DNA of 60,613 nt, from the NCBI GenBank assembly GCA_020833645.1, contig JAJHRQ010000005.1, positions 1-60,613 of the forward strand, read 5' to 3'. The position numbers and the translations under genes were made by a program. Of this stretch, positions 12,022 to 48,909 are shown piece after piece. The notes beneath the pieces are model-generated. The model saw nothing but the letters and a program-made list of their open reading frames with translations. It ran no database searches and had not been told where the DNA came from. The stretch is from Thermocrinis sp. (GTDB lineage: Bacteria; Aquificota; Aquificia; Aquificales; Aquificaceae). Numbering within the stretch: position 1 is the stretch's first letter; each line of letters opens with the position of its first letter.

Positions 12022-12310
12022 CCAGGTCACCCAAAGTGTATAAAACTGCAATTGCTTGCAGTCGTCCCCTGACCTGGAAGGGAGGGACTACCCTTGCCAG
12101 CCACCCCTGCCCAATCCCCTGAAACCAAAACACGCTTCAAGGGAGAGTGGTCCCTACACCACTCAAGGCAAGTAGTGGCAAGCAAAACCGCAAGGGCTAC
12201 GGAAAGAACTCGCCAGCTTTTTTGTCCCGCATGAGTGGGACCCCTCAACTGCTCCATCTTGCGGTTGGCAGTTTGTTGGGTAGCTGGCTCACTCTTCCCG
12301 CTGTCCCGTG
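12022..12310 (-). ncRNA. Predicted omega/re-RNA scaffold of element A
   Basis: The 3' part of the tnpB reading frame and the right end are predicted to fold as a guide-RNA scaffold. Hairpins on the minus strand: H1 GTCCC/GGGAC (12224-12241), H2 AGTGGT/ACCACT (12146-12163), H3 the terminal stem (12022-12077) with an inner CTGCAA/TTGCAG hairpin. The same three positions pair with different bases in the solo copy at 37680-37915, and H1 and H2 again in the copy at 48600-48875. TnpB guide RNAs are known to overlap the 3' end of tnpB and to take their guide from sequence just beyond the right end. Confidence 0.6.
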
Positions 12311-13664
12311 TATAGGAAAGCAATAACTTTAAATACCTCCTTAACCGCTTAATCCTTCCCTTGAGGGCGTTCTTCTTGTATTCGTTGGTCTCTTTCTTTA
12401 ACTCACTCTTGAGTTCATTAATCCGCTCATCTACCTTGGCAATAGCATACGCCAAAAACTCCTTGTCCTTGAGTAGTTCCCTGTAATTCTTAGGAAGCCT
12501 TTCCTCAAACCCAAGACCACGCCTCGCTATCACATAAGCACCAGCTACATCCTTGTCTATGCCTAACATGGGAGAGTATTTAAGCTTGCCAATGATTGAT
12601 GTGTAGGCAGGATTGACCTTTATCAATTGAACTCCCATCCTCTTTGCATAGACTTCAATTTTCTCCAAGACTGATCTATACGCCCATTTATGGAATTTTC
12701 TTCTCAATTTAGCCAAACCGTCTCCTCTTCTGCCTTTAGGGACTTTTTGTAAATCTTCCACAACAATGGCCTTTCCACTCTCTAAAGCCCTCTCTACCAC
12801 TTGCCTTGCTATATGCCATGCTATATGTTCTCGCTGATTTTGGGTTTTGCCCTCCATCTCCCTTAAATCTATGCGTTCAAACTTTTCTAAATTCCCGTCC
12901 GTTGATACGTAAGCTAAAGCTAAATGAAAGGGATAAGCGTTGATGTCTATGCCCATAACTCCGTAAGCTTTAGTTATAACAGGTTCTACAGTCTTTTCTT
13001 CCCAACTGACTTGTGCGTAAAATTTGCCATTTCTTACTTTCAACCTCACGTTATACGCAAACCACTCACCTGATTTCTCCGCTTCCAAAAGCCTCCATGT
13101 AAAGTCAATCCATTTATCATTGCTTTTCTTTGCAATCCTTACAACCTTGGCCCATACATACTCACCGTCTCCCAAGTTAATCCTCAGTTTTAAGCTATCT
13201 TTCCATACAAACCTAAGGTTTAGGTTGCCGTTTTTAGACTTTTCTCCTCTTGAGTAGAGGTAGTAATATCTCCTTTCTTCCCACCTTTGGCGTAGCTTTT
13301 CTCTACGTTTGCCCGTTAGATGCTTCTTCTTTAGCTTTTCAAACAGTTCCCTTGAACCAAACACAAGCTTTTTGGGATTTTGCCCTCTTTGTATGCACGA
13401 CTTTAGCACCTGCTTTGCTATTAAGACAGCGTCCTTTACATACCTTGCGTTTAGCTTATGTTTTTCTTGAATTGTTTTTTCTATTTCTTTTTCCGCCACT
13501 CCCTCTAACAGTCTTTTGTATGCATATCTTGTTGCGGAAGAGAACCTACGCATTAAAGCTAAGACTTTTTCTTTTTCTTCTTCCTTTTCAAACTCCAGCA
13601 TACATTCCAGAGTTATGTAGAGTTTATGGACTTTTTCTTCGCTACAGTTTTTACCACTTCCCAT
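12027..13664 (-). CDS. tnpB: TnpB-like RNA-guided nuclease without zinc finger
   Basis: A 545-codon frame related to the IS200/IS605 accessory TnpB group. RuvC-like acidic residues are present: D near 240 (GIDINAYPF), E near 303 (VVEDLQK), D near 370 (GIDKDVAGAYVIARR). The usual CxxC...CxxC zinc finger between the last two motifs is replaced by NPAYTSIIGKLKYSP. From about residue 455 on, the frame passes through the predicted guide-RNA hairpins; those ~90 residues are low-complexity and may not be needed as protein. About half of the central residues match the copy at 47329-48888. The ATG at 13664 has no clear Shine-Dalgarno. Confidence 0.8.
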   Translation of the reverse strand: MGSGKNCSEEKVHKLYITLECMLEFEKEEEKEKVLALMRRFSSATRYAYKRLLEGVAEKEIEKTIQEKHKLNARYVKDAVLIAKQVLKSCIQRGQNPKKLVFGSRELFEKLKKKHLTGKRREKLRQRWEERRYYYLYSRGEKSKNGNLNLRFVWKDSLKLRINLGDGEYVWAKVVRIAKKSNDKWIDFTWRLLEAEKSGEWFAYNVRLKVRNGKFYAQVSWEEKTVEPVITKAYGVMGIDINAYPFHLALAYVSTDGNLEKFERIDLREMEGKTQNQREHIAWHIARQVVERALESGKAIVVEDLQKVPKGRRGDGLAKLRRKFHKWAYRSVLEKIEVYAKRMGVQLIKVNPAYTSIIGKLKYSPMLGIDKDVAGAYVIARRGLGFEERLPKNYRELLKDKEFLAYAIAKVDERINELKSELKKETNEYKKNALKGRIKRLRRYLKLLLSYTRDSGKSEPATQQTANRKMEQLRGPTHAGQKSWRVLSVALAVLLATTCLEWCRDHSPLKRVLVSGDWAGVAGKGSPSLPGQGTTASNCSFIHFG

Positions 13665-16428: not shown

Positions 16429-17220
16429 TTACTCCAGCGAAAGACCGCCTTCAAAATCCTCCGGGCTCAAACTTTCACAAGCGGATTTCACCTTTTCTAT
16501 GGCGGTGTAGAAGTCATCGGGGATAACCCTGACACGCACACCATAAGCCTTTTGCACTGCTTTTCTTATGATCTCTCCCTTCATAAGGGCATTGTCCCAT
16601 CCAAACTCTGCGTACTTCTCATTTACCAATCTGTTTAGCTCAAAGAGGGCTTTAGCTCTATTCCTTCTTTCTTCCACCGCAGAGCTGAGGGGAAGCCGTA
16701 GGAATTTATCTATCTTTGCAACAAAGCTTTCGTAGAAGCTGGCGGAGAACTTGGGCTCAAGCTCTTCTATGGTAAATCCAAGGGTTATGTATTCGGGTTT
16801 TTCAAAGTAGTCTATAAGGTCCTCCTCCAACTGACTGTCGTTTTCTTTAAATAGCTCCATGTAAAGCCTGTAGGCTTGCTTGGACTTTTCTTTCACGTTT
16901 GGTGGCTTTTCGGTGTTCAATTCCAAAAAGTAATGATAAAGTTCTTCGCCCACCACAATAGCTAAAATTTCATCCACTCCAAGCTCTCTTAGGGCAAAAA
17001 ACCTATGCTGACCATCTATCACATAGAATTTACCCTCCCTCTGCACCACAATTATGGGCACCAAAAAGCCCAACTTTTCTATGGCGGTTTTTAAACGCTC
17101 TTTTAAAGTTTCTGAGAGGTCCCTCTGAAAGTGTGGAACTTCAATCTCTTTTACGTCCAGCAAACACAGGGATAGCTTCCTATGCCTTACCGGTTCCTGA
17201 AAGCTTGCAATTTCCCTCAT
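16429..17220 (-). CDS. Lone ParB/sulfiredoxin-fold nuclease-domain protein
   Basis: A 263-residue protein with a ParB N-terminal-type domain in residues ~15-95: QRDLSETLKERLKTAIEKLG and VIDGQHRFFALRELG, where the DGQHR box near 69-73 is the nucleotide-binding signature (GxxRxxA in ParB). The C-terminal half is helical and charged, without the ParB helix-turn-helix. Not a chromosome-partition ParB: no parA neighbour and no DNA-binding domain. It may be a stand-alone ParB-like CTPase/nuclease of unknown role. Divergent from rlmN, sharing an A/T-rich promoter stretch (17221-17240). Confidence 0.65.
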   Translation of the reverse strand: MREIASFQEPVRHRKLSLCLLDVKEIEVPHFQRDLSETLKERLKTAIEKLGFLVPIIVVQREGKFYVIDGQHRFFALRELGVDEILAIVVGEELYHYFLELNTEKPPNVKEKSKQAYRLYMELFKENDSQLEEDLIDYFEKPEYITLGFTIEELEPKFSASFYESFVAKIDKFLRLPLSSAVEERRNRAKALFELNRLVNEKYAEFGWDNALMKGEIIRKAVQKAYGVRVRVIPDDFYTAIEKVKSACESLSPEDFEGGLSLE

Positions 17221-17232
17221 AGAATTTTATTT

Positions 17233-17238
17233 TATAAT
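17233..17238 (+). promoter_or_regulatory. rlmN -10 box
   Basis: A perfect TATAAT. It overlaps an upstream in-frame ATG (17237), which therefore cannot be a translated start for a message beginning 6-8 nt downstream. The rlmN start must be the ATG at 17291. Confidence 0.6.
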
Positions 17239-17245
17239 GAATGGC

Positions 17246-17292
17246 GTGAGGACTAAGTTAGCTCCTTCAGAGTCCGGAGGCACAATCCCAAT
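17246..17292 (+). repeat. tnpB right-end scar upstream of rlmN
   Basis: These 47 nt match the right end of tnpB element C (48829-48875) without gaps at 35 of 47 positions, and both end in TCCCAAT. In translation the similarity is also visible: VRTKLAPSESGGTIP here against VRSRLVPFEAGGTVP there. It contains GGAGG (17276-17280), 10 nt before the rlmN ATG, so the relic acts as the leader and ribosome-binding site of rlmN. Confidence 0.65.
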
Positions 17293-18343
17293 GAAGTATC
17301 TTTTTAAGACAACTTACATAACTTCCTTAAACTTGGCACAGCTGAGAGAGTTAGTTAAGAGCCTTGGGTGGGAGCCTTACCGGGCAGACCAAATTCTAAA
17401 CTGGGTTTATAAGAAATTCGTAACAAACTTTGAAGAGATGACAAACCTATCAAAGGAGCAAAGAAGATTTTTGAGTGATAATTACTCTATCCACAGCTTA
17501 GAATTGGTGCAAAAGGTGGAGGGTGGAGATTCTACAAAGTTCTTGTTTAAGACCACCGATGGGCATCTTTTGGAGACGGTGTTAATATACGAGCGGGACC
17601 ATCTTACTCTGTGCGTATCTTCCCAAGTGGGCTGTGCTGTGGGATGCACCTTTTGTGCCACCACCCAGGATGGGCTCGTTAGAAACTTAAGGACCGAAGA
17701 GATAATAGACCAATTTTTGCAAGTGCAGAAGCATGCACCACAAAAGATAAGAAATGTGGTCTTCATGGGTATGGGTGAGCCTTTGGCTAACTACGAAAAT
17801 GTTAGGAGGGCTGTGGAGATTATGGTTAGCCCATGGGGGCTTGACCTGTCCAAAAGGAGGGTTAGCATATCCACCAGCGGGCTGGTCCATCAGCTCAGGC
17901 TCATGGCTCAGGACCCACTAATGAGAGAGTTAAACTTAGCAGTTTCCATTAATGCACCCACTCAGGAACTTAGAGAAAAGCTTATGCCCCTTTCAAAGAC
18001 AAACACTCTTCAGGATCTGATGGAAACCCTCTATCAGTTTCCTTACCCCTCCGACAGAAGGATCATGATAGAGTACGTGCTTTTGGAAGGAGTCAATGAT
18101 GAAGAAGTGCACGCAAGACAGCTTGCAAACCTTCTCAAAAAGAAGAGAAATAAATTCAAGGTAAACCTCATACCCTTTAACCCAGACCCATCCTTGCCTT
18201 ACAAGAGACCATCAATGGAGAGGGTTTATAGATTTCAAAAAATCCTTTGGGAGGAGGGTATATCTACCTTCATAAGGTTGAGCAAGGGGGTGGATATATT
18301 TGGCGCCTGCGGTCAGCTAAGAAGAAGACTTGTGTTAAGATAA
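17291..18343 (+). CDS. rlmN: 23S rRNA/tRNA adenine C2-methyltransferase
   Basis: A radical SAM enzyme that methylates C2 of A2503 in 23S rRNA and of A37 in some tRNAs. 350 residues from the ATG at 17291, normal for the family. The cluster motif CxxxCxxC is at C115, C119 and C122 (CAVGCTFC); the substrate-linking cysteine near the C-terminus is in GACGQL. GGMGEPL-equivalent VFMGMGEPLANYE is present. The start was set by the -10 box at 17233-17238 and the GGAGG at 17276-17280; a longer frame upstream encodes only tnpB-end sequence. Followed 7 bp later by lepB. Confidence 0.94.
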   Translation: MKYLFKTTYITSLNLAQLRELVKSLGWEPYRADQILNWVYKKFVTNFEEMTNLSKEQRRFLSDNYSIHSLELVQKVEGGDSTKFLFKTTDGHLLETVLIYERDHLTLCVSSQVGCAVGCTFCATTQDGLVRNLRTEEIIDQFLQVQKHAPQKIRNVVFMGMGEPLANYENVRRAVEIMVSPWGLDLSKRRVSISTSGLVHQLRLMAQDPLMRELNLAVSINAPTQELREKLMPLSKTNTLQDLMETLYQFPYPSDRRIMIEYVLLEGVNDEEVHARQLANLLKKKRNKFKVNLIPFNPDPSLPYKRPSMERVYRFQKILWEEGISTFIRLSKGVDIFGACGQLRRRLVLR

Positions 18344-35286: not shown

Positions 35287-35361
35287 ATGGGCGACAAGGA
35301 ACTGATAAAGAGGATTATGGAAGAGGTCAAGGATGAGAAGTTGAGGGAGGTGCGAAACAGT
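35287..35361 (+). pseudogene. Short reading frame interrupted by the DDE insertion sequence
   Basis: ATG at 35287 follows GGGAGGT; the frame reads MGDKELIKRIMEEVKDEKLR... up to the target duplication at 35352-35361, then enters the insertion sequence. Removing the element and one duplication gives a 26-codon frame ending C-stop at 36306-36311. Not a recognised protein; it may be a small peptide gene or the relic of a longer one. The rest of 35119-35286 holds the dnaK promoter and an imperfect inverted repeat (AGGCTATCCC about 35207-35216 with its partner ending about 35241). Confidence 0.35.
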
Positions 35362-36295
35362 GAGGCTGTTCTAAAAATAATGCTTTAGGGGTGGGATAGA
35401 GATAATTTAGATTTTGTGCGAAAAAGTAAGTTGCCACTAAAAAAGCTTCACACTTTTGTAAGCTACTTCCTCAAAAATACGAAGACGCTTTGATCATCAC
35501 CCTGTGGCTCTTTCAAATACTTAACAACTATTCACACAGAGAAACCCTTGAAAAAGCAAAAAATGAAGGCTTTAACGTGCCATCCCTTTGCGACTATCAC
35601 TACAGAGTTAAACAGTTGGATGATGAACTTCTAAAAAGCATCTTAGAAGAATGTGCTAAGCTTCTCCTTGAAGATAAACAAATTTTGTGCTACATAGCAG
35701 ATGCTACTGGCTTTGGCTTCGGAGATAAATACAACCTTAATCGGAAAAGAGGCACGCAAATAAGAACTGTTCAATCTCACGTTAGACTTGAGGTGATAAT
35801 GGCGGTAGATGAGAATAATCGGAAGATAATAACTGCAGTGGAAACTGGAGGACCTTACGAGAGTGAGATTGAGATGTTGAGGAAGGCATTAAAGAAATTA
35901 GAACCTCAAAAAGGACTATCTTTTATAGCGGATAAAGGCTACGATGCTGTGGATATTATAGAAAGCCTTTTAGATAGAGGATTTGAGCCAGCCATAAGGA
36001 TCAAGGAGGCTATGAGGATGAGTATAAGACATCCTTTGAGAAAGCTATCTAATGAGAATTGGGGGAGATACGGGAAGATGAGGTATAGGGTAGAACAGTT
36101 GTTTGGTAGCATGAAGCAGAAGATTGGTTCAAGCTTTAAATTGCTGAGGGAGGACTTAGCAAGAAAAGCATCCGTTGCTTGTGCTATTCTTTGGAACTTC
36201 TGGGTGCTTGCAACTTACTTATTTTTGTTATTTCTGTCTGGTATCTTGCACTATAGCTATGCTTAAGGGCTATGGTAGATTTTTAAAACAGCCTC
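35362..36295 (+). mobile_element. DDE insertion sequence with 17-bp ends and 10-bp target duplication
   Basis: A 934-bp element. Left end GAGGCTGTTCTAAAAAT (35362-35378); the right end (36279-36295) is its inverse with one mismatch. Perfect 10-bp duplications GCGAAACAGT flank it (35352-35361 and 36296-36305). Target duplications of 10-12 bp are known for the IS4/IS231 group. The same ends flank tnpB element C at 47265-48897. Confidence 0.9.
35416..36266 (+). CDS. DDE transposase of the IS4-like element (frame shift near N-terminus)
   Basis: The main frame (35490-36266) encodes 258 residues with D in IADATGFGF, D in FIADKGYDAV and E in RYRVEQLFGSMKQK, spaced as in DDE_Tnp_1 proteins. The E region also carries the R(3)E(6)K spacing of the IS4 YREK signature. 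A preceding segment in another frame (35416-35485) encodes VRKSKLPLKKLHTFVSYFLK, which fits directly onto KYEDALIITLWLF of the main frame after a -1 shift in the AAAAA at about 35473-35477. So the intact protein needs a frameshift, or this copy lost one A. Confidence 0.75.
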
Positions 36296-36359
36296 GCGAA
36301 ACAGTTGCTAATTTCCGTTCAAAAAAAAATATATAATTGCAGTTCAGCATACCTCGGGT

Positions 36360-37646: not shown

Positions 37647-37915
37647 AGAGGGAGTTAAAGCTTTTGCTTAAGTTTTTGATGGACAGCGGGAAGGGTAAGC
37701 TAGCTACCCAACAAGCGGTTAATCGCTGGCGGAAACCGATGAGGGGTAGGGCAAAGACCCTACAAAAAAGCTGGCAAGTTCTTTCCGTAGCCCTTGCCTT
37801 CTCCTGCCTTGAGAGTTTTAGAGATCTCTCTCCCTTAAAGAGGGTTAGTCCCTCTTCCTGGTCAGGGGACGGTTACACAAAATAAGTGCAGTTTTATACA
37901 CTTTGGGTGACCAGG
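37647..37915 (+). ncRNA. Solo tnpB right end with predicted guide-RNA scaffold (copy B)
   Basis: About 12 codons of a tnpB 3' end remain (ELKLLLKFLMDSGK), cut by the IS6-like element, followed by a complete right end. Hairpins: H1 GTAGGG/CCCTAC (37746-37763), H2 GAGAG/CTCTC (37811-37830), H3 CCTGGTCA/TGACCAGG (37857-37864, 37908-37915). Long stretches equal element A (AGCTGGC, AGTTCTTTCCGTAGCCCTTGC, GCAGTTTTATACACTTTGGG) while the stems differ by compensating changes. No nuclease gene is attached, so any RNA would have to work with a TnpB made elsewhere. Confidence 0.6.
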
Positions 37916-46153: not shown

Positions 46154-47328
46154 AAAAGGATTAGCTTTTAGAACTTCCAGTTTAGACCGACAGAGATGGC
46201 ATTTTGGGCATTTTGGGCTTCTAAGGTATTCGTGTTATCCGCGGCAGACACCTTTTTGTTAAAGGCGTGTTCGTACGCAAGGTCTATGCTAAAGTTCTTG
46301 GTGAATTCATAACCAAGACCAAGGGTTATGTGATGCTCTGTGATGGCTGGGAAGCCTATTAGGTTAAACATAGCGATTTGGAAATCGCTAAACTGTGCGG
46401 CAAAATTTGGAATTGTTTTGTTGGGAGTTATATCTTTGACCCCACCCCTTATAGGAGACTTTCCGTAGTTGTATCCTGCCCTGAGGGCAAGCTTTTGCGT
46501 TGGTTTGAACTCACCACCCAAAGCTATGACCCACTGGTCCTTCCATTGGAACTCTTTGTATCCCTTTGCGTTCTTCCAGTTTATCCACCTGATGTCCATA
46601 CCCACCTTGAGGTTATCCATAGGCTTTACACCAACACCAAAGGCAAGCTCTTGAGGCTGAGTAAGCTTGAAGTCTTCAAATTGTCCATCAAAGCTGGTAT
46701 CAAACACCCTCTTATAAGTCATATTCACTGGGCTTTGGTAGGCTAAACCTGCATACACAAAATCTCCCATGTTGTAGGCAACACCAAGCTGGGCACCAAT
46801 GCCGTAGGTTTGAGACTGCCCGCCACCCAGATTTGCACCTCCAATTGTAGCCCCCATATCTAAGGAGCCATAAGCCAAATGGATTGCACCGGATATAGAA
46901 ATGGCATCGTTTACCTTATAGGCAAGGGCGGGTATCACTCTCATGAACTGGAAGGTGGTATGCATGTTTAGAAGGTCGTCACCTTTATTTCTGTAGTCCA
47001 CACCCATACCGGATACACCAAAAGCCCCTATACCGAAGGTAAGTTTGTCGTTAATTTGATGCACTATTCCCACTTATGGAACCACGAACACCTTTGATTG
47101 ACTGGTGGCAGAGGCTTCGGTGCTTGTGATGATATTACTCTTTGCCTTTACTTCTGGGAAAAGCAGAATTCCTCCAAAGCTCAGGTTAAAGCCCTTGTAG
47201 TAGCTCATCCATGCGGGGTTTCTGAAGATGGTGTCAGTGGGTCCTACGGGCATACCCACGCCTAGAGGTTGTTCTAAAAATACAAACCCATTGACACACA
47301 AGAGTTTTAAGGCTAAAATCTAACTCTG

Positions 47329-48888
47329 ATGTTTGTTAGCTTACAGTTCAAGCTTGAACTGAGAAAAGAAGCCAAAGAAAAACTCATAAAGCTTATGCGT
47401 GAGCAATCCTCTGCCATTCGTGTGGCACACAATATGCTAAAGGAGTTGGAAAAAGAGAAAGCAAAAAACCCACACGCTCAAATATACCATAGACTAAGAC
47501 AGCTATTTCCTAACCTACCGACCAAATACATTGACTCAGCTATTTACAAAGCTAAACAATATCCCACAAACAAAACAGTTGTGTTTGGAGGCAAAAGACT
47601 TTTTGAAAAGCTTTGCAAAAATCGCCTTACGGGAAAAGCAAGGGAAAAGCTTAAAAAACAATGGAGAGAATTAAGACAAGGAACACTTATAAGCATCGGG
47701 TCAAAGGCAGACAAAGGAAACAGACTAATGAGATTTGAAGACCTAAACGGACAGCTACACCTTAGAATTACCACAGGAAACAGAGAATTTATCTACGCCA
47801 AAGTGTTAAGAGAACCAAGCAATAGCAAAGACAAGTGGATAACCTTTATGGCTATGCTTTTAGAAAGTTGGCAAACAAAAAGCTACTTTCCTTACACAGT
47901 GGAGCTAAAGCTAAGAGATGGAGAAGTTTATGGAAGTGTATCCTTTGAACTTCCAACACCTGAAGTGAAATACACCAAAGAAAACGGAGTAATAGCCATA
48001 GACACGAACGCATCACCTATCCACTTAGCTATAGCGGAAGTTTCAAAAACTGGAGAACTACTAAGCTATAAGACCATTAGCCTACACCACCTTTTAGGAC
48101 TTTCTCAAAACAGCAAAGATCACCAAGAGTGGATATTAGCACATCAGATAGTGAATTTAGCTATTGAAAAAGGAAAAGCCGTAGCTATAGAGAACTTAAA
48201 GAAACTCAAAAAAGGAATGCGTGGAGATGGGAAAGCTGAGTTAAGAAAAAGACTTCATCACTGGAATGCCAAAAAGTTTATGCAAAAGCTAAAGAGGGTA
48301 GCAAGATTAAAGGGAGTGGAAGTAGTAGAAGTCAATCCTGCTTACACCTCAGCTATAGGCATGCTAAAGTATGCACCACAGTTAAACACAGACAAAGACA
48401 TAGCAGGGGCGTATGTGATAGGGAGAAGGGCACTGGGCTTTAAAGAGGACGTGCCTGAAAATTACGAAAGACTACTAAAGGACAAGGCATATTTGGAGTT
48501 TGCACTGAAAAGGTATGAAGAGAGAGAAAAGGAACTTGCGGAACTTTTAGAGAAGGAGACAAACCAATATAAAAGGAATGCCTTAGAAAGCGAACTAAAG
48601 AATGTCCAGAATGCAAAGGAGCTATTAGCTAATCAAAGCCTTCAGAGTGAGTCAAGCTCCTGTGAGGGAGCCAACGGAAGGAATCCCGAGCAGGGGAGAG
48701 GCAACCTTGCCTCTTCTTCCGCTTGGCAAGTTCTGAAGGTAGCCCTCCTCTTCTCTATCCTTGGAAAGGTCTTGCCGAGGGACCTTTCTCCTCTGAAGCC
48801 AGTGTTGGTGGAAGGGGTGTGGGATAGGGTGAGGAGTAGGTTAGTTCCCTTTGAGGCTGGGGGGACGGTCCCAATAAGGGATTTTTAG
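47329..48888 (+). CDS. tnpB: TnpB-like RNA-guided nuclease without zinc finger (copy C)
   Basis: A 519-codon frame. RuvC acidic residues: D near 225 (AIDTNASPIHLAI), E near 288 (AIENLKK), D near 355 (NTDKDIAGAYVIGRR). NPAYTSAIGMLKYAP stands where the zinc finger would be. Two long helices follow, then from about residue 425 the frame crosses the predicted guide-RNA hairpins and ends within the terminal repeat. All catalytic positions and the frame are intact, so it may be active. It is related to but clearly diverged from copy A. Confidence 0.82.
   Translation: MFVSLQFKLELRKEAKEKLIKLMREQSSAIRVAHNMLKELEKEKAKNPHAQIYHRLRQLFPNLPTKYIDSAIYKAKQYPTNKTVVFGGKRLFEKLCKNRLTGKAREKLKKQWRELRQGTLISIGSKADKGNRLMRFEDLNGQLHLRITTGNREFIYAKVLREPSNSKDKWITFMAMLLESWQTKSYFPYTVELKLRDGEVYGSVSFELPTPEVKYTKENGVIAIDTNASPIHLAIAEVSKTGELLSYKTISLHHLLGLSQNSKDHQEWILAHQIVNLAIEKGKAVAIENLKKLKKGMRGDGKAELRKRLHHWNAKKFMQKLKRVARLKGVEVVEVNPAYTSAIGMLKYAPQLNTDKDIAGAYVIGRRALGFKEDVPENYERLLKDKAYLEFALKRYEEREKELAELLEKETNQYKRNALESELKNVQNAKELLANQSLQSESSSCEGANGRNPEQGRGNLASSSAWQVLKVALLFSILGKVLPRDLSPLKPVLVEGVWDRVRSRLVPFEAGGTVPIRDF
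48600..48875 (+). ncRNA. Predicted omega/re-RNA scaffold of element C
   Basis: H1 GAGGC/GCCTC (48698-48713), the shared linker TGGCAAGTTCT...GTAGCCCT (about 48724-48747), H2 AAAGGTC/GACCTTT (48765-48787), and a final GGGA/TCCC hairpin ending at TCCCAAT (48875). The rlmN scar ends at the same heptamer, which suggests this is the true right boundary and that guide sequence would begin at 48876. Confidence 0.55.
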
Positions 48889-48909
48889 AACAGCATCTAC
48901 CCACGCCTA

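Follow-up and report, generated by a model that had tools for sequence, protein, structure and literature searches.

The stretch of DNA analysed here (the window) comprises 60,613 nucleotides of a Thermocrinis sp. genome (G000) and includes rlmN, the product of which passes the RlmN equivalog model TIGR00048 with 392.6 bits against a cut-off of 290. The features at this locus are as follows.

16429-17220, minus strand: divergent neighbour gene, GmrSD_N/ParB_N-like, below the Pfam cut-offs
17233-17238, plus strand: TATAAT hexamer, a possible -10 box directly upstream of the relic, kept in five leaders (sequence)
17242-17307, plus strand: relic of the right end (RE) of a tnpB element, spanning the rlmN leader, the ATG and the opening codons (model R1)
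17276-17280, plus strand: Shine-Dalgarno GGAGG, located in the RE relic with the ATG 10 nt downstream (sequence; 5 of 5 leaders)
17291-17311, plus strand: rlmN start codon and first seven codons, aligned to the RE's own ATGAGGGATTTTTAGAACA
17291-18343, plus strand: rlmN, RNA methyltransferase of 350 aa (TIGR00048, PF21016 RlmN_N)

A preliminary description of this DNA had reported an ungapped match between the 47 nt at 17246-17292 and positions 48829-48875, in the right end of a tnpB element termed C. The match was confirmed at 35 of 47 positions; the runner-up among the placings of the 47-mer at every window position on both strands had 26 matches, the best other leader in the same register reached 23/47 (972 candidate starts across the window, for ORFs of 100 codons or more), and mononucleotide shuffling of the leader gave at most 25 in 200,000 trials. 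Likewise, GGAGG lies within the match as described, with the ATG at 17291-17293. The match had also been said to end at the rlmN ATG, and while the overlap with this codon stands, the homology continues into the first codons: blastn pairs 17246-17303 with 48829-48886 (72%, E 5e-4), thus reaching inside rlmN, and R1, a sequence-only model of the RE built from 26 right ends of six genomes with the rlmN leaders excluded, covers 17242-17307 (model positions 15-80 of 87, E 1.1e-6). Position 48875, given before as the right end of element C, does belong to the RE, but the real end is at 48897, 22 nt further.

Across the rlmN leaders of the genus the R1 match ends at model position 77-82 and thus takes in GGAGG and the beginning of the gene, from the ATG through the first five to seven codons. 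The N-terminus of RlmN reads MKYLFKT in G000 and MKDLSKT in G002, G004 and G006. As judged by this homology, the Shine-Dalgarno, the start codon and about seven codons of rlmN are RE-derived.

Another ATG, at 17237, lies upstream in the rlmN frame, which is open from it in G000 and from its counterpart in G004 only, being disrupted by a 1-nt difference in G002, G005 and G006; the frame from 17291 is intact in all five genomes that carry the leader. As only two of the five keep the frame from ATG 17237, 17291 is the common start, and we infer that it is the one used in vivo. Regarding the promoter, the hexamer claimed as a -10 box is present just upstream, but the promoter scan lent it no support, pairing TATAAT with no -35 hexamer; the sole match of the scan was CTGAAA-17-TAGAAT at 17197-17225 (shuffle mean 0.4). 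TATAAT is thus an unproven candidate for the rlmN promoter.

The tnpB element and a DDE insertion sequence

The window holds a complete copy of the element as well as an insertion sequence (IS) with the same terminal inverted repeats (TIR).

35362-36295, plus strand: insertion sequence of DDE type that shares the TIR of element C (35362-35378, 36279-36295)
47253-47264 (copy 1) and 48898-48909 (copy 2), plus strand: target-site duplication (TSD) TACCCACGCCTA (blastn, 12/12 identity)
47265-48897, plus strand: complete tnpB element (element C), bounded by 17-bp terminal inverted repeats at 47265-47281 and 48881-48897
47329-48888, plus strand: tnpB gene of element C (TIGR01766)
48811-48897, plus strand: right end of element C, a source-type copy of the rlmN leader (R1 E 6.6e-27)

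Between the TIRs of element C tnpB was the only gene seen. Its protein is TnpB-related (TIGR01766, 61.3 bits vs a cut-off of 32), with a score for NF040570 (guided_TnpB) under the cut-off of that model, and a search of the genome with PF01385 found nothing. Matches to the tnpB protein number 47 in G000, many of them broken or fragmentary, 9-15 in each of five relatives and 0 in G003. A second, distant tnpB lies at 12027-13664 (minus strand), 43-44% identical to that of element C. Its right end is of another kind, and a sequence partly related to this end lies near 37730-37846.

The DDE IS is flanked by a 10-bp TSD, GCGAAACAGT (35352-35361, 36296-36305), and its region 35490-36266 matches PF01609 DDE_Tnp_1 (E 1.6e-12); by NCBIfam it is IS5/IS4-like, every match being below cut-off. 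The repeat GAGGYTGTTCTAAAAAT bounds both the tnpB element and this IS with 0-1 mismatch, and the pattern is found in 6/7 genus genomes, G003 being without it. The IS is therefore a candidate helper for the tnpB elements.

A mobile insertion cassette (MIC) is a transposase-less passenger gene within the terminal inverted repeats of an IS, with target duplications. Because its inverted repeats are common to the DDE IS, the tnpB element resembles such a cassette; it has IS-type TIRs and TSDs (12 bp in element C, 9 bp in a copy at the HolA gene described below), but it differs in that the passenger is of TnpB type and the right end overlaps the 3' end of this gene. A cassette-like passenger moved by the DDE IS would be the simplest reading. 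With IS200/IS605 the element shares a TnpB-related protein (TIGR01766) and a hairpin right end overlapping the 3' end of tnpB. To our knowledge, classical IS200/IS605 elements have no terminal inverted repeats and make no target duplication, in contrast to the TIRs and the 9-12 bp duplications seen here. By its structure, then, the element is a TIR-bounded passenger and not a classical IS605 end.

Survey of right ends

With R1, 120 matches were obtained in the genus at E ≤0.1, none of them in G003; 107 were examined, including the five rlmN leaders, and the 13 excluded were the weakest (E >0.0016). The RE consensus finishes with GTGAGGAGTAGGTTAGTTCCCTTAGAGGCTGGGGGGACGnTCCCGATGAGGGATTTTTAGAACAGCCTC, after which the flank is variable. 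It ends in the 17-bp inverted repeat, just inside of which lies a GGAGG-like stretch, and many copies have an ATG 23-25 nt before the element end. This ATG is not universal, being present in 48 of the 102 examined non-rlmN copies. Its frame is open beyond the element end in 25 of these 48, running for at least 99 codons in seven and stopping by codon 45 in the other 18. Of 45 frames that cross an RE junction and stay open for 70 codons or more, 12 have the RE ATG in frame, five of these being rlmN. Because many other insertions are located within genes or upstream of genes with a start codon of their own, the in-frame share alone is no proof of selection.

Among 64 genomes of the family R1 matched 11, marginally in two (G020, 3.1e-4; G068, 7.0e-4), and 53 were without a match. 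Outside the genus none of the matches in these 64 genomes was at an rlmN start; the one in G020 lies ~870 nt upstream of its rlmN.

The RE consensus is predicted to form hairpins, and the one in the GGAGG region has compensatory changes. With GGAGG inside a hairpin, the site may be masked in a message that is not being translated; among the folds predicted for the individual rlmN leaders, those of G002 and G005 have GGAGG in a stem, the others not clearly so. In the class of REs ending with GACGTCCCGATGAGGG the stop codon of tnpB overlaps the ATG (ATGA), so coupled translation would be possible.

Distribution of the rlmN leader

The preliminary description proposed that presence of the leader in some close relatives and absence in others would date the insertion, and this is the pattern we found, with the leader in 5/7 genus genomes and not in the other two. 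R1 detects it in G004 (E 2.1e-10), G002 (1.8e-8), G006 (4.0e-8) and, more weakly, G000 (value above) and G005 (7.7e-6). In G001 and G003 rlmN has neither the leader nor the extra codons: the protein of G001 is 77% identical and begins MYVTSLTL, with RE copies elsewhere in that genome, and that of G003 is 73% identical and begins MTVILGYTL. No such leader was seen by eye at 23 further rlmN loci of the family, one of which has only 10 nt of upstream sequence.

In a tree of 13 RlmN proteins the five leader genomes form one clade (support 99/99), and since they lie on one side of a branch, a single insertion in their common ancestor would be the simplest history. All five also carry other RE copies. 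A leader conserved in a lineage devoid of tnpB elements had been named as the observation that would speak against the idea; G003, which lacks tnpB matches, REs and the rlmN leader alike, does not present this case, and the proposal that a mobile-element end was adopted as a translation signal of rlmN is supported.

G004 has the leader and TTTTATTTTATAATG in common, the sequence farther upstream being different. Over the ~170 nt preceding the start, none of the five genomes shows a left end of the element, thus we do not claim a relic of the whole element. GGAGG and ATG are intact in all five leaders, with an indel sitting between them. Outside these motifs the leaders show 1-14 differences in 50-51 positions, about the same rate as at fourfold sites (12-24%), and in this five-leader comparison purifying selection across the whole leader was not seen. 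Four of the six element-bearing genomes (G000, G004, G005 and G006) are drafts of 51-180 contigs, with completeness of 70% for G006, 87% for G005 and 88% for G000; G002, a single contig, has the rlmN leader.

Other genes open in frame from the element ATG

Seven of the 102 examined non-rlmN copies read from the RE ATG into a host gene, most of these fusions coming from draft or partial genomes:

G004: protein kinase (PF00069)
G006: HolA (TIGR01128; no Pfam match)
G005: phosphomannomutase/phosphoglucomutase
G001: endonuclease V
G001: UbiE-family methyltransferase
G001 and G000: two proteins without a Pfam match, that of G000 being a 99-codon ORF

In rlmN and these seven genes the RE is continuous in frame with the host coding sequence and absent from the orthologues; those of the seven without the RE begin at their own ATG. 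For the kinase, the RE is joined to TGAGCCTTTATAAAG in G004, compared with ATGAGCCTTTATAAAG in G002 and G000; for HolA, to TGAACATTTTGG in G006, compared with ATGAACATTTTGG in G002; and for phosphomannomutase, to ATAAAGTTTGG in G005, compared with ATGTCAATAAGATTTGG in G002 and G004. The old start codon is split at the junction (A/TG) in the kinase and in HolA. At HolA the old ATGAACATTT remains across the insertion, beside an element-type left TIR, giving the 9-bp target duplication TGAACATTT; additional insertion-sequence material lies on the left side. The RE copy at the G004 kinase has a left end and an upstream region unlike that of G002, with no target duplication at this copy. In the endonuclease V, UbiE and unknown proteins of G001 and in the 99-codon ORF of G000 the N-terminus is replaced, and several native residues were exchanged in endonuclease V, UbiE and the G000 protein. 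These comparisons indicate that at least eight genes, rlmN included, have an RE-derived start, and that the element end became a gene start independently at several other genes.

Origin of the rlmN start

The best explanation, which we consider very probable, is that the RE of a tnpB element became the translation start of rlmN before the five species diverged. A copy of the element, or the RE alone, would have reached the 5' end of the gene in their ancestor, perhaps by insertion with later loss or by recombination, and the native start would have been lost or bypassed. Translation would begin at the RE ATG using the RE GGAGG, with about seven RE residues preceding the native ITSLNL; a native promoter presumably drives the message, and selection may have retained GGAGG and ATG. 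The RE would thus act as a fortuitous portable translation start, an in-frame landing at a gene start allowing the gene to survive. It is unlikely, on the other hand, that the RE is a portable start selected as such, spreading into conserved genes (holA, rlmN) at low cost; GGAGG and ATG, with a frame open outwards in some copies (T6 or TTTTTCG variants), would then keep the host gene translated, perhaps even coupled to tnpB in the class of RE whose ATG overlaps the stop.

The relic could also be a neutral passenger preceding rlmN, with an unused GGAGG-ATG and the real start further in (e.g. a TTG). Most leader positions do change at roughly the fourfold rate, and a TTG lies 25 nt past the RE match in G000, but such an inner start removes residues that align with native N-termini (MYVTSLTL in G001, MEYITPYNL in outgroups), GGAGG and ATG have stayed intact in five leaders despite the indel between them, and seven further genes have the identical architecture; we regard this possibility as improbable. 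A fusion of the C-terminal tail of TnpB to RlmN, beginning at ATG 17237 and so extended by 18 residues (MNGVRTKLAPSESGGTIP-MKYL...), would account for the frame open from there in G000 and its G004 equivalent and for a peptide like the TnpB tail VRSRLVPFEAGGTVPI; it is very unlikely given that in G002, G005 and G006 the upstream ATG is shifted out of the rlmN frame by 1 nt, and that this ATG overlaps TATAAT and so would be absent from any mRNA begun at that box. Equally much in doubt is an omega-RNA-like hairpin that would control rlmN translation through GGAGG, perhaps by binding TnpB: the compensatory changes of the consensus hairpin and the stems predicted for G002 and G005 would suit it, but the predicted folds do not keep the stem in all five leaders. 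As for chance, or a common ribosome-binding-site motif, GGAGG and ATG are frequent features of gene starts; nevertheless, with 23/47 as the best of the other window leaders and R1 E values of 2e-10 to 8e-6 in five genomes, against none in G003 and in 53/64 family genomes, it can practically be dismissed.

Rickettsia palindromic elements (RPEs) and other prokaryotic MITEs are known to form in-frame fusions to genes, and RPEs insert within host ORFs, altering the product by translational fusion, as described in part of the text of PMC10969869. As far as that part goes, the present case is similar in that a short mobile sequence lies in frame in unrelated host proteins, in many independent genes, and differs in that the element has tnpB and that its end brings in the Shine-Dalgarno together with the start codon. 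In-frame MITE fusions being known from this source (PMC10969869, same part), what would be new is that at several genes an element end provides both the ribosome-binding site and the start codon. No TnpB-element case of such a start takeover was found in the titles and abstract openings returned by our searches of an open-licence library.

In rlmN, whose product modifies the ribosome, a mobile-element end has probably been taken over as the translation start, in an event that is common to five species and can be dated. Younger cases in the genus show the step under way, as in HolA, where the tnpB element and the target duplication are still there. With the rlmN case and the younger ones, one route by which bacteria replace gene starts can be tested directly. 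Homology-based annotation of the start may be wrong at such genes.

Gene starts adjoining right ends

Some further RE copies adjoin gene starts. A KdsD/GutQ-like isomerase of G001 (L128, C2:209049-209116) was considered as an RE-start gene and rejected, its start not being the RE ATG; its N-terminal extension of ~20 residues reads an RE-like stretch in another frame, and orthologues begin MNPEEII or similar. Two G001 genes whose start the RE adjoins, TerC and MqnD, were not counted either. Upstream of the TerC/Alx-like gene (L110, G001:C4:143111-143178) the RE encodes a mini-ORF, MRDFSNSLSLK, the TGA of which overlaps the GTG start (GTGA). G001 has two mqnD-like copies (L302/L307 and L289), a name that we presume to be right for both; the RE match ends ~11 nt before the ATG of one, and the other retains a different upstream sequence before the common TTATATTTCC. 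The RE abuts the ATG of the downstream gene at L158 (G002:C1:336995-337081) and L099 (G004:C9:62640-62728), which we read as another sign of insertions near gene starts.
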